Positions 1 through 64,000 of a stretch of DNA of 64,000 nt are shown piece by piece. Both the position numbers and the translations under genes were made by a program. Numbering within the stretch: the stretch's first letter is position 1; the number at the start of each line of letters is the position of its first letter. The stretch spans positions 34,041,542 to 34,105,541 of the forward strand of contig NC_079492.1 in the NCBI RefSeq assembly GCF_020520425.1, given 5' to 3'. This DNA comes from Spinacia oleracea. Lineage: Eukaryota > Streptophyta > Magnoliopsida > Caryophyllales > Amaranthaceae. The notes below the pieces were generated by a model. That model was not told where the DNA came from and ran no database searches. It saw only the letters and a program-made list of their open reading frames with translations.

Positions 1-1
1 A

Positions 2-2342: not shown

Positions 2343-3206
2343 TATCTCTGTTTAATGTTTTAAAGTTTTAGAGTTTAAATCTTTGTAAAACATTATTGGT
2401 TAATTATTCACAATAAATGAAATGAATTCATTTTTCCATTTAATTTGTGGTTTATTAAATGATGAGTCCCTTCAACTTGACGATATATTCAAGATAGACT
2501 GTCAGGACCAGTCCTGTGACTAAGAAATGTCTATCAAGTGAACTTGAATGTCAAAGGTTGAAAATGGTCCCTAGTCGGAGTTTTCTATAAAATTGGACGC
2601 ATAGAAAACGTTAGACGATTAGAATGCAAGATGACTAGTAGTTCTGTTTCTTGAACTATGTGGACATGGCAATGTTATAATCATTTGCATAGATACTTAC
2701 TTTGGGAAGACTAGTATCGGACAAGACCTATGAAACTTTACTGTAAGAGATGAAAGTCTGTCATAAGTAAATTTCATTAAATTATTAGACACTAAATCCT
2801 GAATACCTGAGTGATTTGAGATTACTTGTTTGAGAACTGGTTGCTTTGACGTTGACCAACCGTCGCACCGTAAAAGGAGGCTATAAAGGCAACGCTCAGG
2901 TAATCACCTATCAAACGAAGTCTAATCTCAAGGTCGCAAGATTGGGATTGTCCTCCCATAAATCGGGATGAGATGCTTAAAAGTTGTACAAGGCCACTCG
3001 GAGAGCTAGAAACTGTGAAATGCATGGCCGTGCTCGGATGAATCATAGGCTATGATTATCTGTTTATTTGATCAGTTGAACTCTGAAACCGAGGAACACC
3101 TCTGGACGTAATAAGGATGACAACTCTTACCTTATGTTCAAGAGCAAGCATCGAGCGACAAAGGAATTAGGAAATGCACACTTGTCCCTAAGGACAAGTG
3201 GGAGAC
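2343..3206 (+). other. Element A 3' untranslated region, ending in the polypurine tract
   Basis: About 860 bp lie between the pol stop and the LTR. They are conserved in B (21644-22507), D, E and F at the same place and contain no sense-strand ORF of note. A 74-codon antisense frame at 2822-3046 is retained in A and D but has no recognisable domain. The length is unusual, since many copia elements have pol ending within about 100 bp of the polypurine tract. Confidence 0.8.
3179..3206 (+). promoter_or_regulatory. Polypurine tract and overlapping hairpin
   Basis: The second-strand primer tract AAGTGGGAGAC abuts the LTR. Its left part is the 3' arm of a perfect 9-bp inverted repeat: CACTTGTCC at 3179-3187 and GGACAAGTG at 3192-3200, with loop CTAA. 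The same arrangement is seen before each 3' LTR of B, D, E and F. The polypurine-tract role follows from its position; the hairpin is seen in the sequence and its role is inference. Confidence 0.75.
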
Positions 3207-13444: not shown

Positions 13445-14855
13445 TGAAGGAAATAATGCCCTTGGTCCAAGTATGCATTCTATGTTAAGTCTAATAAATG
13501 CGGTTCAGTATTAATTAACAAGTTAATAATTCAGTGAGATCAAGTGAGCTGAATGCCTAGCTAGAGGCCGCTTCAGTTCAAGTGGAATTAATGATATTAA
13601 TCCACAGCTTACTCTTGACTGAACCCGTAGGGTCACACAAATAGTACGTAAACGGATCAAGTATGTAATGGCATTAAATACTCTATCTATGAATATTCGG
13701 AATCGACGGATCTTGGTTTCAGTGGGAGCTGAGATCGTCACAGGCAAGAAATGAATACTCCGGAAACGATGATATTGCCGGAAACGGAAATATGGATCGT
13801 ATCGGAAATATAAATATTATCCAAGTCGTAGATGTTGTCGGAAACGGAAACATGGTACGTATCGGAAAATATTATCGGAAATGGAAATATTGCCTGAATC
13901 GGAAATATTGCCGGAAACGGAAATATTGTCAGAATCGGAAATATTACCGGAATCGGAAAATAATTCCGGAAACGGAAATATTAAATATTTGTTCGAAACG
14001 GAAATTAATTCCGGAATCGGAAATATTAAATATTGTTCGTATCGGAAATGAATTCCGGAATCGGAAAAATTAATCGGAAGCGCATCGTACGAATAAGCAT
14101 CGGACGAGGCCTGCCGGACGAGGCCCAGCACGAAGCCAGGCCATCGCCCAGCAAGCCAAGCGCGCCGCACAAACAGCCACGCCAGGCCCAGCGCAAGGCC
14201 AGGCCCAGCAGGCTGCGCAGCACGCACAGCGCGCGCAAGCACGCGCAGCGCGCAGCGCGCGCGGGCGCTGCGTGGGCTGCTGCTCGTGCGCACGCATGGG
14301 CGGCCCATCGTGGCTGCCGTGCGTGTGTGTACAAGTGTTTGTGTTCGTGCACGTTTCCTAAAACATGCAGAGTTCGGTTAATGATTAAATTCCTAATTCT
14401 AATTGATAAATTAATTAAATTAGAGTTCTTGTAGGATTCTAGGTTTAATTAATTTGTATCTGAATAGGATTTCGATTCCCTTTCCATACCCCTATAAATA
14501 TGAGGCTAGGGCTCACAATTTATAACAAGTTTAAAAGTATTCAAAGTGAGTTTTTGAGAGAAAAATTCAGTCACACATTTGCCTATAAAGTGCCGAAAAT
14601 AATAGTACCTTAAGGGCGATTCTAGTTGGTCAATCTTAAGGCGGATCCGGACGTGCTGTGGACTATCTACGGAGGGACGACACTTGGAGTCCTAAATACT
14701 TGTTCTTGTTCGGTTCGGGCGCAGCTAGGGAAGGCACGCAACAAAGAGTATGCATCTAAATTATGCTATATGATTATGTGTAAATAATATGTTGTCCTGG
14801 GTTAATGGTTGTTTCCGCATGATCTATGTAATGTCATATGTATCATAACCTAACA
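13445..14855 (+). repeat. Element B 5' LTR (1411 bp)
   Basis: It runs from TGAAGGAAATAATG to CATAACCTAACA. The TATA box TATAAATA is at 14493-14500, downstream of the CGGAAATATT array (13770-14075) and a GCGC-rich block (14105-14330). Transcription should begin some 30 bp after the TATA, giving R and U5 of roughly 330 bp. Differences from the 3' LTR include G/T at the GTATGTAATGG site and T/G in CCTAAATACTTG. Confidence 0.95.
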
Positions 14856-14856
14856 G

Positions 14857-14870
14857 TGGTATCACGAGCC
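14857..14870 (+). promoter_or_regulatory. Element B primer-binding site, tRNA-Met-like with an extra C
   Basis: TGGTATCACGAGCC starts one base after the LTR. The usual plant initiator-Met primer site is TGGTATCAGAGCC; here a C sits between the eighth and ninth bases. The same variant occurs in D (48485-48498) and E (57598-57611), so it is a family trait, not a chance mutation. Confidence 0.8.
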
Positions 14871-15932
14871 CCTTATTATTTTCATAATCTAAATTGCATG
14901 AACATGGTTAAATATTACAAATTTGCAAGAATTAAAAGGGGTGATTAATTTTCGTAATTGTTAATTAATTGCAAATTGCGTTTATTTAATTATACGTACG
15001 CAGTTTTTCGGCAGTTTCTTCGTTACTCATCGGAATTGAGTGATTTTTGTGTCAATTCCGCATGTAAAAGGCATTCTAAAATTTTGACAAAAAGAGTATT
15101 TTTCTGCCTAACCCAGAATTCTCAAATTCGAAGCCTAACTATGACTTTTCGAAGGTTTTAGTTTTTCGAATGCAAAATTTCGTAAATTTAAGATGTTAAA
15201 TTAAATATTTGCGATTCTTGTTGATAAATCTTGAATTTTTGATTGACCTACTGCATATGTTTAACAAGTTTGAATGCCTAGTCTTGTTAATTATGCAATC
15301 TAATTTGTAATTATGATTAATTTGTTGAAAATTAGAATAATTTAGAATTAATTTGATTTTCATAATTAATTGTAATTTAATTAGAAACCTATGATTAAAA
15401 ACCACCATAAAAATTGTAAATTTATGATAAATTTTAAATTTTTATGACCTAGACTTGAATCCATAACAATCGGAAATCAATTGGATAATAAATTTTCGAT
15501 TTTTCGCCCTAAAATTATGAAATTAATATTATTTATTAATTTGTCATTAATTTTAAATATAAATTTTAAATTTTTATGCGATTCGTTCATAAAACTTGCA
15601 CGCACGAAGCAATGGACGCTTCGTGTTACCCTTAAGGGGTGTTGTATAATGCGGGCATGCGACGACGAGCAAGGGAGCTCGTCGCCCGTGCGGCACGAAT
15701 GCAATAAGCAAGGGCGTAGTGCACGAGCACAAGGCAGCAGCCCTGCCTTGTGTCGTGTGCCATGAGCAATGAACGAATGGGCATGGGCGAAGGGCGAGCC
15801 AAGGCAGTCGCGTGTGGGCAGCAAGCGAGCTGCGCCACAACGCGCGCTGCCTCGCACAAGAGCGCGCAGCCTCGCGCGCAGCGAGCGCAAGCTCGCGTGC
15901 CACGAGCGCTGCGCCCAGCATTACTCGCACGC

Positions 15933-16079
15933 ACAGCGAGCGATGTCGTCCGCCCAGCGAGCGATGTCGCGCGCCCAGCGAGCGATGGCTCGCGCGCACA
16001 GCGAGCGATGTCGCGCGCCCAGCGAGCGATGTCGCGCGCCCAGCGAGCGATGTCGCGCGCGCAATGCGAGCGATAGCTC
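15933..16079 (+). repeat. Leader minisatellite, ~21-bp unit
   Basis: About seven tandem copies of CAGCGAGCGATGTCGCGCGC, with variants, lie in B's leader. D (about 47280-47450) and E (about 56360-56560) carry an equivalent but differently composed array on the other strand. Units of 21 bp, divisible by three, keep all frames open, which explains the overlapping long ORFs here. Confidence 0.8.
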
Positions 16080-16828
16080 GCGTGCGATGAGCGCTGGCGC
16101 GCGCAGCGAACACCAATGCGTGCGGAGGCTTGCGATGGGGATGCAGCAGCTATGCGACGAGCGCATGGGCTGCACGCACATGGCCAGCAATGGCTGTGTG
16201 CGTGCGGGCCATGGGCGTGCAATGCGTAGGGTGTTTGCGTTACGATTAGATCGTTTTGAATGTTTAATTTGAACATTTCAGTTCACGTAATTTTAATTAA
16301 TTTTAAAATTAATAATTTAAATTATTTTCTTGGATTTTAATTTTGAATATTATAATTATAATAAATGTTATTTATTCTAATTATTTTACTAAAATTAAAA
16401 TCATGAATTAATTTAAATACGACTGAAATTAAATTAAACTTTTTGGATTCAATTATAAATTTATATGAGCTTTAAATTTTAATTAAATTTGTATGTTTCC
16501 GGTTAGACTAGAAATACATTTTTATGTTTAAAATTAGTAAAGCATATGAATTTATTGGTTTAAGTGGGAGCGCTTTTTAGTCATAAACTCTTGATTAGGT
16601 CTACAAATCCTTAAGGTTAAAACAACTTGATTAGAATTAATAAGGACTGAATAATTGGTAGATTATTGGTTCCCTTGATTAATTGCTGCAAATGTTTACG
16701 TGATGCATAATGTGTTTTACTAACCAGCTATGTGGGCCATTCATGATAATGAATGGGTGAATGGTATATATTGTATATGTACTGTTTTGCAGGTTATGAA
16801 GTGACTAGTATGGCCCAAATAGGATAGA

Positions 16829-16915
16829 AAATATGGTCTGCGTACCATTAATTTGAATGTAATTGGTCTAAAGTACCAAAGTTATTTTTCAATTCAAATA
16901 TGGTCTGCGTACCAT
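16829..16915 (+). promoter_or_regulatory. Paired 20-bp leader motif with internal hairpin
   Basis: AAATATGGTCTGCGTACCAT occurs at 16829-16848 and again at 16896-16915. Each copy can fold ATGGT with ACCAT around CTGCGT. Both copies and their spacing persist in D (46440-46530) and E (55520-55610), although surrounding leader positions vary. A structured RNA or protein-binding role is possible but unproven. Confidence 0.6.
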
Positions 16916-17679
16916 CAAATAGTTGTAATTAGTTATAGCTTATCCTATTTGAAGAAAATGGTGCCTCCCACGGAGATTTTCAAGACGGACTTTGAAGTCA
17001 AAGCTTCAAGATGAAGTCGGGCCATACTAGATCACAAATATCTTATGCATGTTTTAAGTTATTTATTGCTTTTAAATATGTCTTAAAATGCATGAGATCA
17101 AAAGCTTGATTATGTTGCATGATTAAGGATTTTAGTTCACTTAAAATCTAACCAACATAGTAAGAGCCTTAAGTTCCAAACTTAAAAATTGAGTTAAAAG
17201 GTGCCATGCCAAAATATACACTTGCTTGGATATCCTTTACATCAATCTAGTAATAGTTTTCGCTCAGCGAGGTGTTACTTATTGGTCCTAAAGGGGCAAG
17301 GTACACAAATAATTGTGAGTACATGTTAGTTTTGGTGAAACTCAACGATATAAGTAAGGAGTCCTTTTATGTCGTGGCAAACAGATAGGTTTACCTAATA
17401 AGTTCTTAGACGTACCTATCAACCAAGAATAGTTTCTAGACTATTAGCAAAAGGCTTTTGCTTACCTAAGATGTTCTAGGATTAAGTCGACAAACTGTGC
17501 TTAGTTCTTCAATGATTTTAGGATCTTGGAATCATTTTATTCGCACCTGCCGGAACACATAATTTGAATAAAATGCTTAATAAACATTGAATTATGCATG
17601 TATGCTAGAATTTAAGTTTATTAAGAGAAACTGTGAATGGTTATTTATTTGTTTATTCTTTTCAATTGTAGTTTTTAAT

Positions 17680-20600
17680 ATGGCAAACAACAATTCATTC
17701 AACATTCGATCAATTCTCGAAAAGGAGAAGTTGAACGGGAAAAACTTCCTTGACTGGCAAAGGAACTTGCAAATAGTTCTTATGCAGGAAGAAAAGGAGT
17801 ATGTCCTAGATGAGGCGATGCCCGAAGCTGCAGGCGACGGGGTCACTCAGGCAGCCCTCAATCGTTGGATTGATGCCAACAAGGATGTGAAATGTCTAAT
17901 GCTCGCCACCATGAGTGCGGATCTGCAGAAAACGTTCATCAACTCAGATGCTTTCACAATCATCAGTGAGTTAAAGAACATGTTCCAAGATCTGGCTCGA
18001 GTCGAAAGATTCGAGACTCATAGGCAAATTCTTGAGACCAAGCTTAAGAAAGGCGAGCCCGTAAGTCCACATGTTCTCAAAATGATTGGACTCATTGAGA
18101 ATATGAGTCGGCTGGATCAGCAATTTTCTCAGGAAATGGCTATAGACACCATCCTCCATTCTCTTCATAGCGGGTATGATCAGTTCAAACTGAACTACAG
18201 TATGAATAGTCTGGACAAAACGCTCACTGAGCTTCACGGTATGCTGAAGACCGCTGAAAAGACGCTCAAAAGTGATAAGCAGGATGTGCTTATGGTGCGT
18301 GGGGGCAAGTTCAAGAAATCTGGAAAGAAGAGGAATGCTAAGAAAGGTGGCAACAAGGCCAGCCCAACTAAGCAAACTGGCGCCAAATCTGCAAAGAGGA
18401 AGGTCAGTCAACCCACTTCTGAATCCGAATGCTTCTACTGCAAGAAGAAGGGGCATTGGAAGAGAGATTGCTTGAAGCTAAAGGAAGATCAGAAGAACGG
18501 AACAGTCGTTCCATCTTCAGGTATTTTCGTTATAGACTGTATACTTGCTAATTCAACTTCTTGGGTATTAGATACAGGTTGTGGCTCACACTTATGTTCC
18601 AATCCACAGGGACTAAGAAGAAGTAGAAAGTTAAGCAAGGGTGAAGTCGACCTACGAGTGGGAAATGGAGCACGGATTGCTGCATTAGCCGTAGGAACTT
18701 ACTATTTGTCGTTGCCCTCCGGGCTAGTTTTGGAACTGGAAGAATGTTTCCATGTTCCAAGTCTTACTAAAAACATCATTTCAGTTTCTTGCTTAGATGC
18801 TAAGGGATTTTCCTTTATAATAAAAGACAATAGTTGTTCGTTTTATTTTAAAGAGATGTTTTATGGATCTGCTAGATTAGTCAATGGACTTTATTTATTA
18901 GATCACGACAAACAAGTATATAACATAAATACCAAAAAGGCCAAAAAGAATGATTCAGATCTCACCTATCTGTGGCATTGTCGATTAGGCCATATAAACT
19001 TGAAACGCTTAGAAAGACTTCAAAAGGAAGGAATTCTAGAGCCATTTGACTTAGAGGATTATGGTAAATGCGAATCATGTTTACTTGGCAAAATGACAAA
19101 GCAACCTTTCTCTAAAGTTGGAGAAAGAGCAAATGAACTATTGGGTTTAATCCATACAGATGTATGTGGACCAATGAGTACAAATGCTAGAGGTGGTTTC
19201 AGCTACTTTATCACTTTCACTGATGACTTCAGTAGGTATGGTTATGTCTACCTAATGAAGCATAAGTCTGAATCCTTTGACAAATTCAAGGAATTTCAGA
19301 GTGAAGTAGAGAATCAATTAGGCAAGAAGATTAAGGCACTGCGGTCTGATAGAGGCGGTGAATATCTGAGCTATGAATTTGATGACCATCTGAAAGAATG
19401 TGGAATTCTATCAGAATTGACTCCTCCTGGAACACCACAATGGAACGGTGTCAGAACGGAGAAACAGAACCTTGCTAGACATGGTCAGGTCAATGATGGG
19501 TCAGGCCGAACTTCCATTAGAATTTTGGGGACATGCACTAAATACAGCTGCACTCACTATAAATAGAGCTCCGTCTAAAGCTGTCGAAAAGACTCCATAC
19601 GAATTATGGTTTGGAAAGCCTCCAAATGTGTCTTTTCTTAAGATTTGGGGATGTGAAGTATACGTCAAACGATTAATTTCAGACAAACTTCATCCAAAAT
19701 CTGACAAATGTATCCTTGTGGGCTATCCAAAGGAAACAAAGGGGTATTACTTCTACAATACATCTGAGAACAAAGTGTTTGTTGCTCGAGATGGTGTCTT
19801 TTTGGAGAAGGATCACATTTCCAAAATGACAAGTGGGAGAAAAGTAGACCTCGAAGAAATTCGAGTCGAACAACAAACTCTAGAGAATGCTCAAGATGAC
19901 ATTCAGGATAAAACTCAGAGATCTTTAGAAGAATCTGGTGAGAAACATGGTCAATCTAGAAATGTTACCCCGCGTAGATCGCAAAGATATAGATCTCAAC
20001 CGGAAAGGTACTTAGGTATTTTGACGAACGAGAGCTATGACGTTCTATTACTTGAAAGTGATGAACCTGCGACTTACAAACAAGCTATGACGAGCCCTAG
20101 CTCCAAGCAGTGGCAAGAAGCCATGCAATCTGAATTAGACTCCATGTCTGAAAACCAAGTATGGGATTTGGTCGATTTGCCAGATGGCTACCAAGCCATT
20201 GGAAGCAAATGGGTTTTCAAACTGAAAAAGGACAAGGATGGGAAACTTGAGGTTTTCAAAGCTAGATTGGTCGCAAAAGGTTACAGGCAAGTCCACGGTG
20301 TGGATTACGATGAAACCTTTTCACCAGTTGCAATGCTAAAGTCTATTCGAATAATGTTAGCAATCGCTGCATATTACGATTACGAAATATGGCAGATGGA
20401 TGTCAAAACTGCTTTCTTAAACGGCGTTTTAACAGAAACTGTGTTTATGACACAGCCTGAAGGTTTTGAGGATCCAAAGAATGCTAAAAAGGTATGCAAG
20501 CTAAAGAAGTCAATCTACGGATTGAAGCAGGCATCCAGGAGCTGGAATATACGTTTTGATGAAGCAGTCAGTGACTTTGGTTTCATCAAGAACGCGGACG

Positions 20601-21643
20601 AATCTTGTGTATACAAGAAGGTCAGTGGGAGCAAAATTGCTTTCCTAGTATTATATGTCGACGACATATTGCTTATCGGAAATGACATTCCTATGTTGAA
20701 CTCTGTCAAGATTTGGCTTGGGAAATGTTTTTCGATGAAGGATCTAGGAGAAGCACAGTACATATTGGGCATCAAGATTTACAGAGATAGATCTAAAAAG
20801 ATGATTGGACTTAGTCAAAGCACTTATATCAATAAGGTGCTTGATAGGTTCAAGATGGCGGACTCCAAGCGAGGCTACCTACCCATGTCTCATGGAATGA
20901 CTCTAAGCAAGACTCAGTGCCCAAAAACACTTGATGAGCGTAGACGAATGAATGGGATTCCATATGCATCATTGATTGGTTCAATAATGTATGCTATGAT
21001 ATGTACACGCCCGGATGTTGCGTACGCACTCAGTGCTACGAGCAGATATCAGTCAGACCCAGGAGAGGCGCATTGGACTGCTGCCAAGAATATTCTGAAG
21101 TACCTGAAAAGGCACAAAGATGACTTCCTGGTCTATGGTGGAGATGATGAATTAATTGTTAAAGGCTATACGGACGCAAGTTTCCAAACCGACAAAGATG
21201 ATTTCAGATCACAGTCTGGGTTTGTCTTCTGCCTCAACGGAGGAGCAGTAAGTTGGAAAAGTGCTAAGCAAAGCACCATTGCGGATTCTACAACTGAAGC
21301 GGAGTACATTGCTGCACATGAAGCAGCAAAGGAAGCTATATGGCTAAGGAAGTTCATAGGAGAACTTGGTGTAGTCCCCTCCATTAAAGGACCAATAGCC
21401 CTGTATTGTGATAATAACGGAGCTATTGCACAGGCAAAAGAGCCTAGACACCACCAGAGAGTCAAGCATGTACTTCGTAGATTTCACCTTCTACGAGAGT
21501 TCGTTGAAAGAAAAGAAGTCGAGATAAGCAAAATTGGAACTGATGACAACATCTCAGATCCATTAACTAAACCTCTGCCGCAGGCGAAGCACAACTCGCA
21601 CACTGCAGCTATGGGAATCAAGCATATTGGAGAATGGCTTTGA
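17680..21643 (+). pseudogene. gag-pol: Element B gag-pol polyprotein, frameshifted in integrase
   Basis: ATG at 17680 (context AATATGGC) gives MANNNSFNIRSILEKEKLNG. An upstream in-frame ATG at 17587 would add 31 mostly hydrophobic residues, so I prefer the later start. Gag core covers residues ~10-210. The zinc knuckle CFYCKKKGHWKRDC is near residue 251 and the protease motif LDTGCGS near 298. The integrase zinc site (WHCRLGH...CESC) begins near 432, with the D,D-E core after it. RT has YVDDILL (about 20654) and RNase H ends at HIGEWL. Restoring the reading frame in thought gives ~1320 residues. Relative to A, E and F, two bases (GT) are missing at about 19448-19451 before the third catalytic residue of integrase, so the first frame ends at 19566 and the second runs 19448-21643. 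All other domains look intact. Confidence 0.95.
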
Positions 21644-22507
21644 TGTCTCTGTTTAATGTTTTAAAGTTTTAGAGTTTAAATCTTTGTAAAACATTATTGG
21701 TTAATCATTCACAATAAATGAAATGAATTCATTTTTCCATTTAATTTGTGGTTTATTAAATGATGAGTCCCTTCAACTTGACGATATATTCAAGATAGAC
21801 TGTCAGGACCAGTCCTGTGACTAAGAAATGTCTATCAAGTGAACTTGAATGTCATAGGTTGAAAATGGTCCCTAGTCGGAGTTTTCTATAAAATTGGACG
21901 CATAGAAAACGTTAGACGATTAGAATGCAAGATGACTAGTAGTTCTGTTTCTTGAACTATGTGGACATGGCAATGTTATAATCATTTGCATAGATACTTA
22001 CTTTGGGAAGACTAGTATCGGACAAGACCTATGAAACTTTACTGTAAGAGATGAAAGTCTGTCATAAGTAAATTTCATTAAATTATTAGACACTAAATCC
22101 TGAATACCTGAGTGATTTGAGATTACTTGTTTGAGAACTGGTTGCTTTGACGTTGACCAACCGTCGCACCGTAAAAGGAGGCTATAAAGGCAACGCTCAG
22201 GTAATCACCTATCAAACGAAGTCTAATCTCAAGATCGCAAGATTGGGATTATCCTCCCATAAATCGGGATGAGATGCTTAAAAGTTGTACAAGACCACTC
22301 GGAGAGCTAGAAACTGTGAAATGCATGGCCGTGCTCGGATGAATCATAGGCTATGATTATCTGTTTATTTGATCAGTTGAACTCTGAAACCGAGGAACAC
22401 CTCTGGACGTAATAAGGATGACAACTCTTACCTTATGTTCAAGAGCAAGCATCGAGCGACAAAGGAATTAGGAAATGCACACTTGTCCCTAAGGACAAGT
22501 GGGAGAC
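21644..22507 (+). other. Element B 3' untranslated region and polypurine tract
   Basis: This is collinear with 2343-3206 of element A, with only scattered base changes. It closes with the 9-bp hairpin and AAGTGGGAGAC just before the 3' LTR. Confidence 0.85.
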
Positions 22508-23918
22508 TGAAGGAAATAATGCCCTTGGTCCAAGTATGCATTCTATGTTAAGTCTAATAAATGCGGTTCAGTATTAATTAACAAGTTAATAATTCAGTGA
22601 GATCAAGTGAGCTGAATGCCTAGCTAGAGGCCGCTTCAGTTCAAGTGGAATTAATGATATTAATCCACAGCTTACTCTTGACTGAACCCGTAGGGTCACA
22701 CAAATAGTACGTAAACGGATCAAGTATTTAATGGCATTAAATACTTTATCTATGAATATTCGGAATCGACGGATCTTGGTTTCAGTGGGAGCTGAGATCG
22801 TCACAGGCAAGAAATGAATACTCCGGAAACGATGATATTGCCGGAAACGGAAATATGGATCGTATCGGAAATATAAATATTATCCAAGTCGTAGATGTTG
22901 CCGGAAACGGAAACATGGTACGTATCGGAAAATATTATCGGAAATGGAAATATTGCCAGAATCGGAAATATTGCCGGAAACGGAAATATTGTCAGAATCG
23001 GAAATATTACCGGAATCGGAAAATAATTCCGGAAACGGAAATATTAAATATTTGTTCGAAACGGAAATTAATTCCGGAATCGGAAATATTAAATATTGTT
23101 CGTATCGGAAATGAATTCCGGAATCGGAAAAATTAATCAGAAGCGCATCGTACGAATAAGCATCGGACGAGGCCTGCCGGACGAGGCCCAGCACGAAGCC
23201 AGGCCATCGCCCAGCAAGCCAAGCGCGCCGCACAAACAGCCACGCCAGGCCCAGCGCAAGGCCAGGCCCAGCAGGCTGCGCAGCACGCACAGCGCGCGCA
23301 AGCACGCGCAGCGCGCAGCGCGCGCGGGCGCTGCGTGGGCTGCTGCTCGTGCGCACGCATGGGCGGCCCATCGTGGCTGCCGTGCGTGTGTGTACAAGTG
23401 TTTGTGTTCGTGCACGTTTCCTAAAACTTGCAGAGTTCGGTTAATGATTAAATTCCTAATTCTAATTGATAAATTAATTAAATTAGAGTTCTTGTAGGAT
23501 TCTAGGTTTAATTAATTTGTATCTGAATAGGATTTCGATTCCCTTTCCATACCCCTATAAATATGAGGCTAGGGCTCACAATTTATAACAAGTTTAAAAG
23601 TATTCAAAGTGAGTTTTTGAGAGAAAAATTCAGTCACACATTTGCCTATAAAGTGCCGAAAATAATAGTACCTTAAGGGCGATTCTAGTTGGTCAATCTT
23701 AAGGCGGATCCGGACGTGCTGTGGACTATCTACGGAGGGACGACACTTGGAGTCCTAAAGACTTGTTCTTGTTCGGTTCGGGCGCAGCTAGGGAAGGCAC
23801 GCAACAAAGAGTATGCATCTAAATTATGCTATATGATTATGTGTAAATAATATGTTGTCCTGGGTTAATGGTTGTTTCCGCATGATCTATGTAATGTCAT
23901 ATGTATCATAACCTAACA
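22508..23918 (+). repeat. Element B 3' LTR (1411 bp)
   Basis: It has the same length and termini as the 5' LTR. About seven single-base differences were counted by eye, for example CAAGTATTTAATGG, AATTAATCAGAAG and CTAAAACTTGCAG. It ends at 23918 and is followed by the GCCCA target duplicate. Confidence 0.95.
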
Positions 23919-24571
23919 GCCCACCGCAAGGCAGGCCCAGCGCGCGCCCAAGGCTACGGCAGCGTGTGGGCTTCGTGGTAGTGGGCTGCGAGTGCTCGTG
24001 GGCTGCACGCGCGCGCATGGCGCCCCTCGTGGGCTGCTATGCGTGCGTGTGTGTTTGTGTTCCCTTACGATCAACCTAAAGCGTATAGGATTCATTTGTT
24101 GATTGAATTTCCTAATCCTAAAAGATAGATTAATTAATTTAGAGTTCTGCTAGGATTCTAATTTAATTAATTCGTATCCTAGTAGGATTCGATTACTTAT
24201 TCCATGGCCTATAAATATGAGTTAAGGGCTCATAATTTACAACGAGTTTCAAGTATTCAAAGGTAAGAATTTGAGCAAAAATTCAGCCAAACACTTGCCC
24301 ATATTAGCCGAATATTTTAGTACCTTAAGGGCGATTCTAGTTGGTCAATCTTAAGGCGGATCCGGACGTGCTGTGGACTTTCTACGGAGGGACGACACTT
24401 GGAGTCCTAAAGACTTGTTCTTGTTCGGTTCGGGCGCAGCAAGGGAGGGCACGCTACAAAGTGTATGCATCTAAATTATGCTAATTGTTATGTGGCAATT
24501 AATTTGGAATCCTGGCATTTATGGTTATTTCCGCATGATTTATATTCGTTTATATGTATCATAACCTAACA
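23919..24571 (+). repeat. Solo LTR C, right half
   Basis: It resumes with the duplicated GCCCA and the GC block, then the TATA region CTATAAATATGAG (about 24210), CCTTAAGG and the family end CATAACCTAACA. With the left half it makes an LTR of about 1406 bp, the family length. Confidence 0.88.
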
Positions 24572-42262: not shown

Positions 42263-43018
42263 GTCTCCCACTTGTCCTTAGGGACAAGTGTGCATTTCCT
42301 AATTCCTTTGTCGCTCGATGCTTGCTCTTGAACATAAGGTAAGAGTTGTCATCCTTATTATGTCCAGAGGTGTTCCTCGGTTTCAGAGTTCAACTGATCA
42401 AATAAACAGATAATCATAGCCTATGATTCATCCGAGCACGGCCATACATTTCACAGTTTCTAGCTCTCCGAGTGGCCTTGTACAACTTTTAAGCATCTCA
42501 TCCCGATTTATGGGAGGACAATCCCAATCTTGCGATCTTGAGATTAGACTTCGTTTGATAGGTGATTACCTGAGCGTTGCCTTTATAGCCTCCTTTTACA
42601 GTGCGACGGTTGGTCAACGTCAAAGCAACCAGTTCTCAAACAAGTAATCTCAAATCACTCAGGTATTGAGGATTTAGTGTCTAATAATTTTAATGAAATT
42701 TACTTATGACAGATTTTCATCTCTTACAGTAAAGTTTCATAGGTCTTGTCCGATACTAGTCTTCCCAAAGTAAGTATCTATGCAAATGATTATGACATTG
42801 CCATGTCCACATAGTTCAAGAAACAGAACTACTAGTCATCTTGCATTTTAATCGTCTAACGTTTTCTATGCGTCCAATTTTATAGAAAACTCCGACTAGG
42901 GACCATTTTCAACCTTTGACATTCAAGTTCACTTGATAGACATTTCTTAGTCACAGGACTGGTCCTGACAGTCTATCTTGAATATATCGTCAAATTTGAA
43001 GGGACTCATCATTTAAAT
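42263..43018 (-). other. Element D 3' untranslated region and polypurine tract
   Basis: It matches the A/B/E 3' region from GTCTCCCACTTGTCC up to GAAGGGACTCATCATTTAA. It then leaves the family sequence before the point where pol should end. One position (ACTAGGGACC) agrees with A and B rather than E and F (ACCAGGGACC). Confidence 0.8.
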
Positions 43019-45650
43019 CTGTACTTAGAAACTAAAATACTTATTAGCTTCACTAAAATACATTTCTAATTCCCAATTGCTTGCTTAAATCTGTACTTAG
43101 ATTTTATAAACTAGCTTTTCTTTTCAAGCATTTATTTGGATCCACAAATCCTATGACATACCATGTACATAGTTTCTTCCAACATTTGACTGAGGAAGAT
43201 GTTTTGTCATCCAATTGCCATATGTACCAATATGCAATCATTGCTTGAATTATAGACTTAAGCATTACGATTTTGCATGAGGTTTCAACACAATCCACAT
43301 CGTGAATTTGCTTGTAACCTTTAGCAACTAATCTAGCTTTGTGTGTGAACACAATTTCATGTTTGATGGTTTTTATCCTTAAAACAAACTTGCAACCAAT
43401 AGGTGTGAAACTATTCTTGCAAATCAACAAAATTTCAATTTTGTCATCAAAACATTGAGTATGTTTTATGGCCTCTAACCATTTAAAACATTTGAGTCTA
43501 TATATGGCCTCTAACCATTTTAGGGAATCTGGGTTTCGTCATAGCTTTCTTACAAGTCACAAACTCATTAATCTACATGATAATAGTTTGACTGCAAGTT
43601 GTAGGTTTCTTCACTATCTAATAGAAGAATCGCATAGCTTCAGTGACCTGAACTCCATGATTCTTCACTATTTAATAGAAGAATCTCATAGTTTCAGTGA
43701 CTTGAACTCTATGCCTACTTGGGTATAGAACATCAAACAATAGAATATCAATAGCCACTTGAAAGTCCTTTGAATATTCTGTTCTCCTTGAAGCACTTGG
43801 AAAGTCTTCTAAGAGATGTCTATTCTTTAAAGCCACTTCTAAAGTCTTTAAAGGATAAGTTCGGATTTTCTGAAGCACTTCGAAAAGCCTCCGGAATGTC
43901 TGTTTATGTTTGTTGTTCGCCTCGAAGACTTTCGAGGTCTATTTTCTCCCACTTGTCATTTTGGAAACGAATCTCCAAAAGGACATCATTTCGAGCAAAC
44001 AAACATTATGTTCTCAAAAATTCGTGGTAGAAACAATACCCTTGTGTCTCATTTGAATAAATCACAATGAAACATATATCTATACTTGGGGCCTTAGTTT
44101 GTTGAATAACAAACACTAAGCTCCCACTGAGTTTAGGAACTCTTTAAATATATTATGAAAAGAAATTTTGAAATTACTTTTCAATAGCTTTGACGAATTT
44201 GGTTTAGTTTGGTGGTAGTTGAGCATTTTATTTTAGAAATTATAGGAAAAGTCTTTATGATTCATCATTGATCGAATCAAGTACTAATTGACTTCGATTA
44301 TTCCAACTAAGATATGCCATATCTTATGGACCTAGATTGTGAAATTACAACACACAATCATTGATGATCATATTTGGTCTCAAGTAATCATCAACATGAT
44401 CTAACCTAGATCTTTATGATTTCTTGCCAAGTGGATTTTATACTTCTGAATCTTTGAACTAGTCAAACAGATTCAAACCTATATTCACTCAAATCCATGT
44501 GAAATAATAAAGTCATAAAACCTTTCTTTAACTTTGAACTCTATCGTCTAGGCGTTCTAACAATAGTTCATATTCTTTGTTACTTTCAACAAGTAAGACT
44601 GGCTTGTCTTAAGTTGATCTAGAAATCAACCAACTTTCAAAAGTCCATTAAAATAGAGCTTGTGATTGTTAACTTGTTGACATGGTCTAAGCAACAATGC
44701 CAAAGATTAGTGGAACTCAAATCAAGGGTTTGATTTGAACCTAGTAAAGTTTTTATTGTTAAAGAGTTGTTTGTTTTAATCAAGCATATTGACTCAACCC
44801 GTAATTGACCATTTCACTCAAATAAACAAACAAACATTGTTTTTGTTTTTCTTGAATGTGAGTCTTTCTGTGTTTGAAAAACAGAAATTTAGGTATGCTG
44901 ATTATGGAACAAAATAGCCATTAAGTTCCAGCCTTTGAAAGGACTTAAAACAAACTAGATGACCCTACAACTAATGTAGCATTGCCATGCTTCATTTCCC
45001 ACTTGTAGGCCATTAGTGTAGCCTAGCTTCCATTGTTTGAGTTATTACCGAAGTAAGAACCTCAAGCGGTATATGATACCAAGGAAGTTTGATTCCTAGG
45101 TCACTTCTCTTTAAACATAAACTTATAGGTAGAAACGGAATTGTAAATTCCTGTCATCTGTTCCTTTGTTTTCCTATTTCTTGTACCCTTTCTTATAGTC
45201 TTAAGAATTGAATTCTTTAGTGTTGACTTTTATACTTTGTTAGACATGTCCAATGTCACCAACAAGGTTCTTTACCATTTTAATTTATGTTGAATATTTT
45301 GTTTCAACTAGATGATCTTACCAGAAGCTTCTAAAGTTCTCTAAGTATCGATCTATTCGAATGTCTAGGGACTAGACTCATTCGAGAATTAAATGGAAAA
45401 AAGATTTTAGGTTGTTAACCATTGGTAAAGCTGAGCGTTTAAACTCAATGCTTTATGATCTCAAAACTACATTGTATTTTGAATTCACAAGCACCAATCG
45501 GTTTGCCATTCGACTTTGATGTTCGAAAACAACCATAAAAGTCGCTATAAGAAACGTACATTTTAAATTGCTCACTTTCTCTCATTTCCTTGAATCGTTC
45601 TTGGATTCACTACCAATCGAAGAAATTTACTGTTACCTTTCTAAAAGGAT
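43019..45650 (-). pseudogene. gag-pol: Element D gag-pol remnant, heavily decayed
   Basis: Scattered homology survives in order. An RT start (43430-43104) reads IGCKFVLRIK, HKARLVAKGYKQIHDVDCVET and VMLKSI. A stretch matching the integrase-RT spacer (TCTCCCACTTGTCATTTTGG) lies near 43944. A protease region around 44950-45010 reads ACAACTAATGTAGCATTGCC and CATTTCCCACTTGTAGG on +. Traces of the zinc-knuckle downstream segment lie near 45130-45200. Small tandem duplications (54 bp near 43612/43666, 36 bp near 43470/43506) and many stops break it up. The span is about 1.3 kb shorter than in E and most of Gag, integrase and RNase H is not recognisable. It codes for nothing functional. Confidence 0.75.
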
Positions 45651-45789
45651 TTACCGCAGTGCAAGAATTTAATTATAAACAATAATTAAAACATACATTG
45701 AAGCATGCAAAGTCTAAACATTTATCATGAGTAATAACTTGAAAATTAAAGCAATCATGCAATTTCAACAAGTTATTAGCATTTTATTC

Positions 45790-48498: not shown

Positions 48499-48499
48499 C

Positions 48500-49896
48500 T
48501 GTTAGGTTATGATACATATGACAATTCATAAATCATGCGGAAAAACCATAAAGCCAGGAAAACATATTATTTACACATAATCATTTAGCATAGTTTAGAT
48601 GCATACTCTTTGTTGCGTGCCTTCCCTAGCTGCGCCCGAACCGAACAAGAACAAGTCTTTAGGACTCCAAGTGTCGTCCCTCCGTAGATAGTCCACAGCA
48701 CGTCCGGATCCGCCTTAAGATTGACCAACTAGAATCGCCCTTAAGGTACTATTATTTTCGGCACTTTATAGGCAATTGTGTGACTGAATTTTGCTCTCAA
48801 AAACTCACTTTGAATACTTGAATGCTCGATTTAAATATGTGACCCTAGGCACGTTTTTATAGAGTTATGGAAAAGGATTTGGAATCCTATTAGGATACTA
48901 ATTTATTTAATTATAATCCTACTAGGACTCTAATTAAATAAACTAAATCTTTTCGGATTAGATTTAATCATATGAAAAATCCCGGTAGCTTTAGGATTCG
49001 AGTAGCACACAAACACACACGCACGCACAGCAGCCCACGAGGGGCGCTATGCGCGCGCAGCGCGCAGCCCGCGAGCTCGCAGCCCACTGCCGCAAGCCCA
49101 TACGCTGCCGCAGCCTTGGCGCGCGCTGGGCCTGCCTTGCGGTGGGCCTGGCGCAGCCTTGGCTGGTGCGTTTGTGGCGCGCTGGCTTGCTGGGCGATGG
49201 CCCGGCTTCGTGCTGGGCCTTCGTCTGGCAGGCCTCGTCCGATGCTAATTCGTACGATACGCTTCCGATTAATTTCCCGATTCCGGAATTCATTTCCGAT
49301 ACGAACAATATTCAACATTTCCGATTCCGGAATCAATTTCCGTTTCGAACAAATATTTAATATTTCCGTTTCCGGAATTATTTTCCGATTCCGATAATAT
49401 TTCCGATTCTCACAATATTTCCGTTTCCGGCAATATTTCTGATTCCGGCAATATTTCCATTTCCGATAATATTTTTCGATACGTACCATGTTTCCGTTTC
49501 CGGCAACATCTACGACTTGGATAATATTTATATTTCCGATACGATCCATATTTCCGTTTCCGGCAATATCATCGTTTCCGTAGTATTCATTTCTTGCCTG
49601 TGACGATCTCAGCTCCCACTGAAACCAAGATCCGTCGATTCCGAATATCCATAGATGGAGTATTTAATGCCATTAAATACTTGATCCGTTTACGTACTAT
49701 TTGTGTGACCCTACGGGTTCAGTCAAGAGTAAGCTGTGGATTAATATCATTAATTCCACTTGAACTGAAGCGGCCTCTAGCTAGGCATTCAGCTCACTTG
49801 ATCTCACTGAATTATTAACTTGTTAATTAATACTGAACCGCATTTATTAGACTTAACATAGAATGCATACTTGGACCAAGGGTATTATTTCCTTCA
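48500..49896 (-). repeat. LTR2 (1397 bp), shared: 5' LTR of D and 3' LTR of E
   Basis: Both boundaries are normal family LTR ends. Its low-coordinate side meets a primer-binding site and its high-coordinate side meets a polypurine tract (CTCCCACTTGTCC read on +). It is nearly identical to the 58118-59264 part of LTR3. Confidence 0.92.
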
Positions 49897-50760: not shown

Positions 50761-53700
50761 TCAAAGCCATTCTCCAATATGCTTGATTCCCATAGCTGCA
50801 GTGTGCGAGTTGTGCTTCGCTTGCGGCAGAGGTTTAGTCAATGGATCTGATATGTTGTCATCAGTTCCAATTTTGCTTATCTCGACTTCTTTTCTTTCAA
50901 CGAACTCTCGTAGAAGGTGAAATCTACGAAGTACATGCTTGACTCTCTGGTGGTGTCTAGGCTCCTTTGCCTGTGCAATAGCTCCGTTATTGTCACAATA
51001 CAGGGCTATTGGTCCTTTAATGGAGGGGACTACACCAAGTTCACCTATGAACTTCCTTAGCCATATAGCTTCCTTTGCTGCTTCATGTGCAGCAATGTAC
51101 TCCGCTTCAGTTGTAGAATCCGCAATGGTGCTTTGTTTAGCACTTTTCCAGCTTACTGCTCCTCCGTTGAGGCAGAAGACAAACCCAGACTGTGATCTGA
51201 AATCATCTTTGTCGGTTTGGAAACTTGCGTCCGTATAGCCTTTAACAATTAATTCATCATCTCCACCAAAGACCAGGAAGTCATCTTTGTGCCTTTTCAG
51301 GTACTTCAGAATGTTCTTGGCAGCAGTCCAATGCGCCTCTCCTGGGTCTGACCGGTATCTGCTCGTAGCACTGAGTGCGTAAGCAACATCCGGGCGTGTA
51401 CATATCATAGCATACATTATTGAACCAATCAATGATGCATATGGAATCCCATTCATTCGTCTACGCTCATCAAGTGTTTTTGGACACTGAGTCTTGCTTA
51501 GAGTCATTCCATGAGACATGGGTAGGTAGCCTCGCTTGGAGTCTGCCATCTTGAACCTATCAAGCACCTTATTGATATAAGTGCTTTGACTAAGTCCAAT
51601 CATCTTTTTAGATCTATCTCTGTAAATCTTGATGCCCAATATGTACTGTGCTTCTCCTAGATCTTTCATCGAAAAACATTTCCCAAGCCAAATCTTGACA
51701 GAGTTCAACATAGGAATGTCATTTCCGATAAGTAATATGTCGTCGACATATAGTACTAGGAAAGCAATTTTGCTCCCACTGACTTTCTTGTATACACAAG
51801 ATTCGTCTGCGTTCTTGATGAAACCAAAGTCACTGACTGCTTCATCAAAACGTATATTCCAGCTCCTGGATGCCTGCTTCAATCCGTAGATTGACTTCTT
51901 TAGCTTACATACCTTTTTAGCATTCTTTGGATCCTCAAAACCTTCAGGCTGTGTCATAAACACAGTTTCTGTTAAAACGCCGTTTAAGAAAGCAGTTTTG
52001 ACATCCATCTGCCATATTTCGTAATCGTAATATGCAGCGATTGCTAACATTATCCGAATAGACTTTAGCATTGCAACTGGTGAAAAGGTTTCATCGTAAT
52101 CCACACCGTGGACTTGCCTGTAACCTTTTGCAACCAATCTAGCTTTGAAAACTTCAAGTTTCCCATCCTTGTCCTTTTTCAGTTTGAAAACCCATTTGCT
52201 TCCAATGGCTTGGTAGCCATCTGGCAAATCGACCAAATCCCATACTTGGTTTTCAGACATGGAGTCTAATTCAGATTGCATGGCTTCTTGCCACTGCTTG
52301 GAGCTAGGGCTCGTCATAGCTTGTTTGTAAGTCGCAGGTTCATCACTTTCAAGTAATAGAACGTCATAGCTCTCGTTCGTCAAAATACCTAAGTACCTTT
52401 CCGGTTGAGATCTATATCTTTGCGATCTACGCGGGGTAACATTTCTAGTTTGACCATGATTCTCACCAGATTCTTCTAAAGATCTCTGAGTTTCATCCTG
52501 AATGTCATCTTGAGCATTCTCTAGAGTTTGTTGTTTGACTCGAATTTCTTCGAGGTCTACTTTTCTCCCACTTGTCATTTTGGAAATGTGATCTTTCTCC
52601 AAAAAGACACCATCTCGAGCAACAAACACCTTGTTCTCAGATGTATTGTAGAAGTAATACCCCTTTGTTTCCTTTGGATAGCCCACAAGGATACATTTGT
52701 CAGATTTTGGATGAAGTTTGTCTGAAATTAATCGTTTGACGTATACTTCACATCCCCAAATCTTAAGAAAAGACACATTTGGAGGCTTTCCAAACCATAA
52801 TTCGTATGGAGTCTTTTCGACAGCTTTAGACGGAGCTCTATTTATAGTGAGTGCAGCTGTATTTAGTGCATGTCCCCAAAATTCTAATGGAAGTTTGGCC
52901 TGACCCATCATTGACCTGACCATGTCTAGCAAGGTTCTGTTCCTCCGTTCCGACACACCGTTCCATTGTGGTGTTCCAGGAGGAGTCAATTCTGATAGAA
53001 TTCCACATTCTTTCAGATGGTCATCAAATTCATAGCTCAGATATTCACCGCCTCTATCAGACCGCAGTGCCTTAATCTTCTTGCTTAATTGATTCTCTAC
53101 TTCACTCTGAAATTCCTTGAATTTGTCAAAGGATTCAGACTTATGCTTCATTAGGTAGACATAACCATACCTACTGAAGTCATCAGTGAAAGTGATAAAG
53201 TAGCTGAAACCACCTCTAGCATTTGTACTCATTGGTCCACATACATCTGTATGGATTAAACCCAATAGTTCATTTGCTCTTTCTCCAACTTTAGAGAAAG
53301 GTTGCTTTGTCATTTTGCCAAGTAAACATGATTCGCATTTACCATAATCCTCTAAGTCAAATGGTTCTAGAATTCCTTCCTTTTGAAGTCTTTCTAAGCG
53401 TTTCAAGTTTATATGGCCTAATCGACAATGCCACAGATAGGTGAGATCTGAATCATCCTTTTTGGCCTTTTTGGTATTTATGTTATATACTTGTTTGTCG
53501 TGATCTAATAAATAAAGTCCATTGACTAATCTAGCAGATCCATAAAACATCTCTTTAAAATAAAACGAACAACTATTGTCTTTTATTAAAAAGGAAAATC
53601 CCTTAGCATCTAATCAAGAAACTGAAATGATGTTTTTTTTTTTAGTAAGACTTGGAACATGGAAACATTCTTCCAGTTCCAAAACTAGCCCGGAGGGCAA

Positions 53701-54753
53701 CGACAAATAGTAAGTTCCTACAGCTAATGCAGCAATCCGTGCTCCATTTCCCACTCGTAGGTCGACTTCACCCTTGCTTAACTTTCTACTTCTTCTTAGT
53801 CCCTGTGGATTGGAACATAAGTGTGAGCCACAACCTGTATCTAATACCCAAGAAGTTGAATTAGCAAGTATACAGTCTATAACGAAAATACCTGAAGATG
53901 GAACGACTGTTCCGTTCTTCTGATCTTCCTTTAGCTTTGGACATTCTCTTTTGTAATGGCCTATTCCATCACAATAAAGACAGCTTGATGTGGACTTGTC
54001 CTGCTTTGATTTAGCATTGCCCTTGGACTTTCCACCTTTCTTGAATGGTCTCCTTCCAGCCTTGAGTAAATCTTTGGCTTCACAGTCCAGTATTATTTCA
54101 GCCTTTCTGACAAGGTGAACAAATTCTGCAACTGTTTCTTCTCTTGGTTCACTTAGGAATAGTTGCTTGAAGCGACCAAACCCACTGTGTAGTGAATTGA
54201 GCAAGATAGAGGCTGCCATCCTTTCGCTTATTGGTGTTCCTAGTAGACTTAGGCGATCAAAGTATGAACGCATAAGATCCACATGGAACCTCAGTGGGAC
54301 TCCTACCCTCTGTTTAGTGCGAAGGAGCTGAACATGTGTTTCTTGGATCTCCATCCTATAACACCTGTTGGAAGAACTAACCTTTAGACCAGACATTGAT
54401 TCAATCAACTCATGGACGTTTAGGTCCCTGTCCTCCGTGCTTCCACGACAGATATCCCTCAGATTCTTGATGAGCGTAAAAGGTTCATAGGCTACAAACC
54501 TTTTAGCCCAATCATCAGGGATATTGTTCAGCATGAGACTCATAACCTTTTTGAGATCCGCATCCCAGGCGTAAAATCTCTCAGGGGTCATGTCTCTGGC
54601 ATAGTAGCTTGGCATGGGATGTGACAGTACATACTCAAGTCCATTGAGTTTGACTATTTCAACTAGCTTAGCTTCCCATTCAAGAAAATTTGCCAGGTTC
54701 AGCTTGACCATAAGCTCAGAACCTATGATGATGTTTTGATTGTTGTTTGCCAT
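50761..54753 (-). pseudogene. gag-pol: Element E gag-pol: one frame interrupted by a single TGA
   Basis: ATG at 54753 starts MANNNQNIIIGSELMVKL. Gag (to about residue 270) is unlike B's: LEYVLSHPMPSYYARDMTPERFYAWDADLKKV..., with zinc knuckle CLYCDGIGHYKREC. From KLKEDQKNGTVVPSSG on, the sequence is almost identical to B. The protease motif LDTGCGS is followed by LTKKKNIISVS (two extra Lys from an A-run expansion). Then comes TGA (53614-53616), where B has TGC (Cys). The frame continues without shift through integrase, RT (YVDDILL) and RNase H to HIGEWL at 50761. Total length is 1330 codons plus stop, the longest intact pol in the window. F has the same TGA and A-run. Without readthrough, only Gag-protease would be made. 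Confidence 0.93.
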
Positions 54754-57597
54754 TTTAAAAACTACAATTGAAAAGAATAAACAAATAAATAACCATTCAC
54801 AGTTTCTCTTAATAAACTTAAATTCTAGCATACATGCATAATTCAATGTTTATTAAGCATTTTATTCAAGTTATGTGTTCCGGCAGGTGTGAATAAAATG
54901 ATTCCAAGATCCTAAAATCATTGAAGAACTAAGCACAGTTTGTCGACTTAATCCTAAAACATCTTAGGTAAGCAAAAGCCTTTTGCTAATAGTCTAGAAA
55001 CTATTCTTGGTTGATAGGTACGTCTAAGAACTTATTAGGTAAACCTATCGATTTTGCCACGACATAAAAGGACTCCTTACTTATATCGTTGAGTTTCACC
55101 AAAACTAACATGTACTCACAATTATTTGTGTACCTTGCCCCTTTAGGACCAATAAGTAACACCTCGCTGAGCGAAAACTATTACTAGATTGATGAAAAGG
55201 ATATCCAAGCAAGTGTATATTTTGGCATGGCACCTTTTAACTCAATTTTTAAGTTTGGAACTTAAGGCTCTTACTATGTTGGTTAGATTTTAAGTGAACT
55301 AAAATCCTTAATCATGCAACATAATCAAGCTTTTGATCTCATGCATTTTAAGACATATTTAAAAGCAATAAATAACTTAAAACATGCATAAGATAAATGT
55401 GATCTAGTATAGCCCGACTTCATCTTGAAGCTTTAACTTCAAAGTCCGTCTTGAAAATCTCCGTGGGAGGCACCATTTTCTTCAAATAGAATAAGCTATA
55501 ATTAAAAATAATTACAACTATTTGATGGTACGCAGACCATATTTGAATTGAAAAACAACTTTGGTCCTTTAGACCAATTACATTCAAATTAATGGTACGC
55601 AGACCATATTTTCTATCCTATTTGGGCCATACTAGTCACTTCATAACCTGCAAAACAGTACATATACAATATATACCATTCATCCATTCATTAAAATGAA
55701 TGGCCCACATAGCTGGTTAGTAAAACACATTATGCATCACATAAACATTTGCATCAATTAATCAAGGGCACAAATAATCTACAAATTATTCAGTCCTTAT
55801 TAATTCTAATCAAGTTGTTTTAACCTTAAGGTTTTGTAGACCTAATCAAGAGTTTATGACTAAAAAGGTCTCCCACTTAAACCAATAAATTCATATGCTT
55901 TACTAATTTTAAACATAAAAATGTATTTCTAGTCTAACCGGAAACATACAAATTTAATTAAAATTTAAAGCTCATATAAATTTATAATTGAATCCAAAAA
56001 GTTTAATTTAATTTCAGTCGTATTTAAATTAATTCATGATTTTAATTTTAGTAAAATAATTAGAATAAATAAAATTTATTATAATTACAATATTCAAAAA
56101 AATCCAAGAAAATAATTTAAATTATTAATTTTAAAATTAATTAAAATTACGTAAACTGAAAATTTCAAATTAAAATTTCAAAACGATCTAATCGCAACGC
56201 AACAACCCTACGCAACGTACGCCCATGGGCCACACGCACACAGCCATCGCTGGCCATGTGCGCGCAGCCCATGCGCTGCGTCGCATTGCTGCTGCTGCTT
56301 TCCTTGGCAAGGCATCACGCGAGCTGGTGCTCGCTGCGCGCGCCAGCATTCGATGCACGCGAGCCATCGCTCGCTGCGCTCGCTCGCCAGCGCTCGCTGC
56401 GCGCGCTCGCCAGCGCTTGCTTTATGCGGGCCATTGCTCGCTGCGCACGCTCGCCAGCGCTCGCTGCGCGCGCTTGCCAGCGCTCGCTGCGCGCGCTTGC
56501 CAGCGCTCGATCCTGCGAGCCATCGCTCGCTGCGCGAGGCATCGACGCTGGGCGTAGCACTCGTGGCACGCGAGCTTGCGCTCGCTGCGCGCGAGGATCC
56601 GCACGCTTTGCGCGAGGCAATGCGCCCTGTGGCGCAGCTCGCTTGCTGCCCACACGCGACTGCTGTGCCTTGCTTTCGCCCTCGCCCATTCGTCCATTGC
56701 TCACAGCCCACGACACAAGGCAGGGCTGCTGCCTTGTGCTCGTGCACCATGGCCTTGCTCATTGCATTCGTGCCGCATGGGCGACGAGCTCCCTTGCTCG
56801 TCGTCACATGCCCGCACTATACAACACCCCTTAAGGGTAACACGTAGCGTCCATTGCTTTGTGCGTGCAAGTTTCATGAGCGAATCGCATAAAATTTAAA
56901 AATTTATATTTAAAATTAATGACAAATTAATAAATAATATTAATTTCATAATTTTAGGGCGAAAAAATCGAAAATTTATTATTCAATTGATTTCCGATTA
57001 ACATGGATTCAAGTCTAGGTCATAAAAATTTAAAATTTAACATAAATTTACAATTTTTATGGTGGTTTTTAATCATAGGTATCTAATTAAATTATAATTA
57101 ATTATGAAAATCAAATTAATTCTAAATTATTCTAATTTTCAACAAATTAATCATAATTACAAATTAGATTGCATAATTAACAAGGCTAGGCATTCAAACT
57201 TGTTAAACATATACAGCAGGTCAATCAAAAATTCAAGATTTATCAACAAGAATCGCAAATATTTAATTTAACATCTTAAATTTACGAAATTTTGCATTCG
57301 AAAAACTAAAACCTTCGAAAAGTCATAGTTAGGCTTCGAATTTGAGAATTCTGGGTTCGGCAGAAAAATACTCTTTTTGTCAAAATTTTAGAATGCCTTT
57401 TACATGCGGAATTGACACAAAAATCACTCGATTTGGATGAGTAACGAAGAAACTGCCGAAAAAACTGCGTACGTATAATTAAATAAACGCAATTTGCAAT
57501 TAATTAACAATTACGAAAATTAATCACCCCTTTTAATTCTTGCAAATTTGTAATATTTAACCATGTTCATGCAATTTAGATTATGAAAATAATAAGA
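54754..57597 (-). other. Element E leader
   Basis: About 2.8 kb. The first 31 codons before the Gag ATG (54846-54754) are open in frame and hydrophobic, as in B. Just before the ATG lies TTTCAATTGTAG, a splice-acceptor-like tract. The paired GGTACGCAGACCAT motifs lie at 55520-55610, the GC minisatellite at about 56360-56560, the hairpin at 56782-56803. Confidence 0.85.
56340..56590 (-). repeat. GC-rich minisatellite in E leader
   Basis: About ten variants of a ~21-bp unit (CGCTCGCTGCGCGCGCTCGC read on +). E has more copies than D at the same place, so the array changes length between near-identical elements. Confidence 0.75.
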
Positions 57598-57611
57598 GGC
57601 TCGTGATACCA
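57598..57611 (-). promoter_or_regulatory. Element E primer-binding site
   Basis: TGGTATCACGAGCC on the - strand, one base from LTR3, identical to B and D. Confidence 0.8.
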
Positions 57612-63100: not shown

Positions 63101-64000
63101 AATCCGTGCTCCATTTCCCACTCGTAGGTCGACTTCACCCTTGCTTAACTTTCTACTTCTTCTTAGTCCCTGTGGATTGGAACATAAGTGTGAGCCACAA
63201 CCTGTATCTAATACCCAAGAAGTTGAATTAGCAAGTATACAGTCTATAACGAAAATACCTGAAGATGGAACGACTGTTCCGTTCTTCTGATCTTCCTTTA
63301 GCTTTGGACATTCTCTTTTGTAATGGCCTATTCCATCACAATAAAGACAGCTTGATGTGGACTTGTCCTGCTTTGATTTAGCATTGCCCTTGGACTTTCC
63401 ACCTTTCTTGAATGGTCTCCTTCCAGCCTTGAGTAAATCTTTGGCTTCACAGTCCAGTATTATTTCAGCCTTTCTGACAAGGTGAACAAATTCTGCAACT
63501 GTTTCTTCTCTTGGTTCACTTAGGAATAGTTGCTTGAAGCGACCAAACCCACTGTGTAGTGAATTGAGCAAGATAGAGACTGCCATCCTTTCGCTTATTG
63601 GTGTTCCTAGTAGACTTAGGCGATCAAAGTATGAACGCATAAGATCCACATGGAACCTCAGTGGGACTCCTACCCTCTGTTTAGTGCGAAGGAGCTGAAC
63701 ATGTGTTTCTTGGATCTCCATCCTATAACACCTGTTGGGAGAACTAACCTTTAGACCAGACATTGATTCAATCAACTCATGGACGTTTAGGTCCCTGTCC
63801 TCCGTGCTTCCACGACAGATATCCCTCAGATTCTTGATGAGCGTAAAAGGTTCATAGGCTACAAACCTTTTAGCCCAATCATCAGGGATATTGTTCAGCA
63901 TGAGACTCATAACCTTTTTGAGATCCGCATCCCAGGCGTAAAATCTCTCTGGGGTCATGTCTCTGGCATAGTAGCTTGGCATGGGATGTGACAGTACATA
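60129..64000 (-). pseudogene. gag-pol: Element F gag-pol, partial, with frameshift and shared TGA
   Basis: Gag of the E type enters from the right edge (YVLSHPMPSYYARD...). The zinc knuckle, protease and A-run follow, then TGA at 62981-62983 in the same place as E. Integrase and the start of the spacer run to 61757, where a one-base loss at about 61769 (CTTTCGATTG against CTTTCCGGTTG in E) shifts the frame. RT-RNase H continues in the other frame to 60129. A change WNG to WKG in the integrase motif GTPQWNGVSE is F-specific. F is therefore more damaged than E. Confidence 0.92.

Follow-up and report, generated by a model that had tools for sequence, protein, structure and literature searches.

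In Saccharomyces, the Ty1 and Ty1' subfamilies have different gag genes and a shared pol, with recombinants near the gag/pol boundary; in the passages of that work used here, the origin of the gag difference is given as horizontal transfer plus recombination, 93 amino-acid and three indel changes are counted across Gag, and Gag-based copy number control is shown (PMC7055915). Among plants, Athila elements of Arabidopsis have obtained gag, pol or env from distant families via recombination (PMC2410132, in part), and members of the Arabidopsis ONSEN family undergo frequent pairwise recombination during transposition bursts (abstract of PMC5668417). In wheat, RLC_Angela includes non-autonomous elements with a degenerate coding region and LTRs resembling those of their autonomous partners, and in RLG_Sabrina the GAG-Pro region has been replaced by unrelated short genes (passages of PMC9744471). 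Angela makes up over 70% of the full-length Copia elements of spinach (PMC6337768, in part).

The stretch of spinach DNA analysed here in its entirety (64,000 nucleotides, hereafter the window) contains all or part of elements A, B, D, E and F (Table 1). They are very probably members of a single, very abundant Ty1/copia family that has two capsid modules on one backbone, the outcome of a founding swap, amplification and later re-exchange, with template switching as the likeliest route. The Pfam domains stand in the order of copia elements (Retrotran_gag_2, zf-CCHC, Pol_BBD, gag_pre-integrs and rve, then RVT_2), and B has the LTR pair and target duplication of a Ty1/copia LTR retrotransposon (LTR divergence 0.0050). 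Directly after the 5' LTR, in the position of a primer site, lies GTGGTATCACGAGCC, which we take to resemble the tRNA-Met primer site; the exact tRNA-site string tried gave no match. In the window, the frames of B, E and F are all broken, and F and E have almost the same sequence (99.6% across 5,880 nt when the window is compared with itself by BLASTN), so these two are not independent. The insertion of B has apparently split an older LTR belonging to a related element (12687-13444 and 23920-24571). Also present are a minus-strand copia element (5776-7929), more distantly related, whose ORFs code for gag and integrase, and a local array of diverged direct repeats (38295-39788).

Table 1. Coordinates of the elements and their parts (positions in the window, except those beginning with L012 or L013, which lie beside it)
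Feature	Position	Strand	Remarks
E-type gag module, element E	53938..54753	-	272 aa, capsid region and CCHC knuckle
B-type gag module, element B	17680..18474	+	265 aa
E-type gag of element F, partial	63305..64000	-	99.6% to E over 695 nt
Start of F gag beyond window	L012:1-120		Continues 63305..64000
Element B	13445..23919	+	LTRs 13445-14856 and 22508-23919, 99.5% identical; 5-bp target duplication GCCCA
Protease-integrase-RT-RNase H region of B, common to E	18475..21643	+	Frame broken, two overlapping ORFs
Protease-integrase-RT-RNase H region of E	50761..53937	-	98.5-99.4% to B; frame broken
3' LTR of E = 5' LTR of D	48500..49896	-	Tandem array
5' leader of E	54754..57611	-	95.8% to B, 99.1% to D
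Element A, from part of pol to 3' LTR	1..4614	+	~99% to B
E-type gag of element A	L013:8355-9170		Just left of window
Coding region of D	43013..45747	-	Degenerate remnants of copia from another origin, flanked by E-like leader and 3' UTR

The initial annotation had proposed that a whole structural module, comprising capsid and zinc knuckle, differs between elements that are otherwise nearly identical, and the comparison of B with E confirms this. When the window was compared with itself (BLASTN), B-E homology was split at gag: B 14350-17694 matched E 58117-54739 at 94.2% and B 18475-23919 matched E 53937-48499 at 96.1%, with no B-E match of at least 200 nt between these two blocks. In 50-nt windows, identity was 0.94-1.00 across B 17309-17632 upstream of the module, 0.20-0.72 inside it, and back at 0.98-1.00 past it (B 18483-18708), with values of 0.84-0.88 beyond B 18708 at the site of a 6-7-nt gap. 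The letters common to the two elements extend up to and include the start, ATGGCAAACAACAA, and resume at AAGCTAAAGGAAGATCAG, and the adjoining DNA is 94-100% identical. The edges are therefore where they had been placed, at the Gag start and directly past the zinc knuckle, and the fall in identity at each of them is abrupt, not gradual. The span originally given (53614-54753) does contain the module, but also takes in shared protease sequence; the limits in Table 1 are those of the module itself.

Outside gag the two elements have diverged little: PR-IN is 99.4% and IN-RT-RH 98.5% identical, so that divergence in pol is far from equalling that in gag, and the values for the 3' UTR, the 3' LTR and the 5' leader are 97.7%, 94.2% and 95.8%, the leader being similar near gag, with its divergence peak at 15,757-16,357. 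The module proteins are only 30% identical. Even where aligned residues are the same, 53 of 86 codons differ, and the fourfold sites differ at 26 of 33 places inside the module (synonymous sites are thus saturated), against controls of 1/45 at the protease start and 7/284 in IN-RT-RH. Substitution in place cannot saturate the synonymous sites of gag and leave its neighbours untouched, and so the module was exchanged. That the two Gags might instead have diverged where they stand, by fast evolution or positive selection, could draw on a six-row Gag tree in which E is sister to B (93/99, not starred), on a long branch, the alternative topology being not rejected (p-AU 0.199); however, selection on a protein does not saturate synonymous sites, and element A is ~99% identical to B outside gag, so that with the synonymous-site comparison we reject in-place divergence as very improbable. 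It had also been stated that only general copia-Gag features remain in common. Divergence is indeed strong, but the statement goes slightly too far, as the two Gags are detectable homologues by BLASTP (E ~1e-34) and their nucleotide alignment scores 91, where shuffles average 30.7 and none of 200 scored as high.

Both types of Gag end in a CCHC knuckle, and alignment gives the E-type an extra stretch of ~26 residues. With a Pfam cut-off of 27, the B-type scores 43.1 bits for Retrotran_gag_2 and the E-type 20.8, below the cut-off. The structural model of the B-type (pLDDT 74.7) has a match in the Copia capsid structure solved for Drosophila (E 1.9e-6); that of the E-type is poor (pLDDT 55.6) and had no structural match at E <=0.001, the best being the C-terminal domain of the Ty1' capsid (E 0.021). 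Presumably, both capsids work. In front of the Gag ATG, in both types, inspection by eye reveals a pyrimidine-rich stretch ending in TTGTAG (54754-54780 in E), a putative splice acceptor.

E and F had initially been regarded as exceptions, and here the earlier view is not supported: the gag dimorphism is genome-wide, and each type forms a major subfamily. Across the whole genome, exact matches to the knuckle/protease junction number 5,775 in the B-form and 2,479 in the E-form (reversed-pattern controls gave 0 for both). Repeats are easily mis-joined, and assembly error might be thought to have created such junctions; yet each junction is present in thousands of exact copies, many of them in long open frames, and this copy number leads us to dismiss assembly error, with negligible residual probability, as the source of the dimorphism. 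Protein searches gave at least 142 E-type Gag matches at 96-100% identity (15,921 first-look candidates) and at least 144 B-type matches, all at 100% (17,923 first-look candidates); among the matches listed, open frames of at least 1,300 codons were found in 45/142 E-type and 66/144 B-type copies.

The copies compared further were not taken at random but were those matching the Gags of the window itself best. There were 31 of each type, the E-type set taking in E and F of the window (L014, L015) and A (L013), and four of the 62, with disturbed flanks, were dropped before diversity and haplotypes were counted but kept in the trees. LTR divergence was 0.0037-0.0166 in five E-type copies (one measured on 184 nt only) and 0-0.0033 in five of the B-type, and mean diversity of the flanks was 0.0185 and 0.0145 in 28 sampled E-type copies and 0.0091 and 0.0072 in 30 of the B-type. 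In these samples, picked by likeness, both types are young, the E-type being somewhat the older.

Since the founding swap the module has been exchanged again, as is evident from A and at least one further sampled copy, which have an E-type gag on a B-type backbone. A is the clearest case. Its gag differs from that of E at 19 of 816 sites, and outside gag it differs from B at 29/2,821 sites in the leader, 0/830 in PR-IN, 16/2,452 in IN-RT-RH, 4/751 in the 3' UTR and 16/1,408 in the LTR. Because A, too, has E-type gag, it is B that is the odd one among A, B, E and F. A is identical to B in all 30 upstream diagnostic columns (58 copies); its downstream haplotype consists of two of ten columns, L013 ending there. 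Another E-type copy (L039) has the same upstream haplotype as a B-type copy (L066) and is B-like, not identical, downstream, and L028 and L048 have mixed haplotypes. The diagnostic columns were picked with the four recombinants left out, and 11 of the 30 upstream columns are accounted for by two gap places, which lowers the number of independent sites. On trees of the 1.5-kb flanks (31 copies of each type) gag type requires 5 and 3 changes, against ~21 in shuffles; it thus clusters strongly, though not perfectly, on both trees, and only one change is forced by starred branches. Re-exchange has therefore been limited, and the case for it rests mainly on A and L039.

How might the module have moved? 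On the very probable reading given above, a founding recombination swapped the entire Gag module, start codon and zinc knuckle included; both forms then multiplied to thousands of copies, and the near-identical flanking DNA permitted later re-exchange between backbones. The likeliest route would be packaging of two element RNAs per particle and a change of template by reverse transcriptase on each side of gag. The main rival is an exchange at the DNA level, without reverse transcription, in which integrated copies undergo gene conversion or double crossover: thousands of dispersed copies offer long homologous arms for it, A is like B both before and after gag, and the array of D, E and F with common LTRs implies that DNA-level recombination may act at this locus. 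Nothing counts decisively against DNA exchange, as both routes leave the same marks, but founding edges with little homology inside the module would fit template switching somewhat better; we infer template switching and consider DNA conversion unlikely. It may be added that no target duplication was seen between the members of this tandem array (40868-64000), and that the end of the 5' LTR of E (57613-58123) is B-like (98.0% to B vs 92.4% to the 3' LTR of E itself) and runs into a truncated LTR of F, the two overlapping by ~250 nt.

No donor was found. Searches for relatives gave none of the E-type Gag in viral_contigs or plasmids, and none of pol in viral_contigs or phages. Two copia contigs from bacterial assemblies, to both of which PR-IN of B is ~49% identical, have Gags closer to the B-type (38% and 32%) than to the E-type (23% and 18%). 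A genome search with the nearer of them (369 aa) gave 111 listed matches at 39-40%, among which the commonest open frame, 1,353 codons, is that of B-type copies; two that were inspected were B-type. The nearness of B-type Gag to both contigs, together with the inspected matches, suggests weakly that B-type Gag may be the older partner of pol and the E-type the acquired one; the six-row Gag tree, in which E is sister to B, speaks against this. Frames of 1,321 codons among the same 111 listed matches had hinted at a third Gag type, but the two inspected copies (L094, L095) proved to be B-type with an altered start. Copia pol sequences 54-63% identical to this spinach family occur in bacterial records (L005, L006, L001, L002, L003, L004) from Streptomyces, Kitasatospora, Solirubrobacter and Bradyrhizobium, and the label of two of these records is complete plasmid; they are likely to be plant contamination.

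Element D (40868-48499) shows a second kind of exchange, having the LTRs and UTRs of the family (its leader is 99.1% and its 3' UTR 98.1% identical to those of E) on both sides of a coding region that is degenerate and derives from a different copia source. The gag region of D matched neither Gag type above shuffles, 48/200 and 73/200 shuffles scoring as high. Immediately to the right of the window, on the opposite strand, there is a second copy of D (94.2%; L012:5434-9778). D is a candidate for a non-autonomous partner of the sort found with Angela in wheat.

The identity of the capsid is one factor in deciding which RNAs enter particles and which elements are able to parasitise others. A new capsid specificity might, as the initial annotation suggested, let an element evade host silencing or cross-packaging. 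We may tentatively picture, as a doubtful possibility, two capsid alleles maintained over a long time on one replicative backbone: the Gags would be too different to co-assemble, would be traded as cassettes, and would both be kept by escape from interference aimed at the commoner, whether this interference came from a dominant-negative Gag or from non-autonomous elements, D for example, being packaged. Two capsid types in thousands of copies on one backbone form a natural, countable system for studying capsid trading and its frequency, suited also to asking if capsid incompatibility protects from parasites or self-restriction, and they make modular evolution measurable inside one genome.

In the literature searched (with partial coverage) we found no earlier report of the spinach pair. 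Shared pol, divergent gag and recombinants are all present, as in a gag-swapped subfamily pair of the Ty1/Ty1' kind; but most Gag residues are shared by Ty1 and Ty1' (on the passages of PMC7055915 used), whereas the spinach modules have 30% identity and thousands of copies. The Athila mosaics are likewise plant LTR elements built by recombination, but these are of Ty3/gypsy type, with breakpoints inside gag and many elements non-autonomous (PMC2410132, in part), whereas the spinach swap takes a whole module, and long open frames are present among the copies of either form. The abstract on ONSEN mentions no capsid dimorphism (PMC5668417), and the passages on Angela in PMC9744471 contain no description of a backbone with two types of capsid, although the non-autonomous RLC_Angela elements of wheat are comparable to D. 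Capsid exchange as such is thus already known from Ty1/Ty1' and Athila; what sets the spinach pair apart is the divergence of the modules, their abundance and their clean edges.
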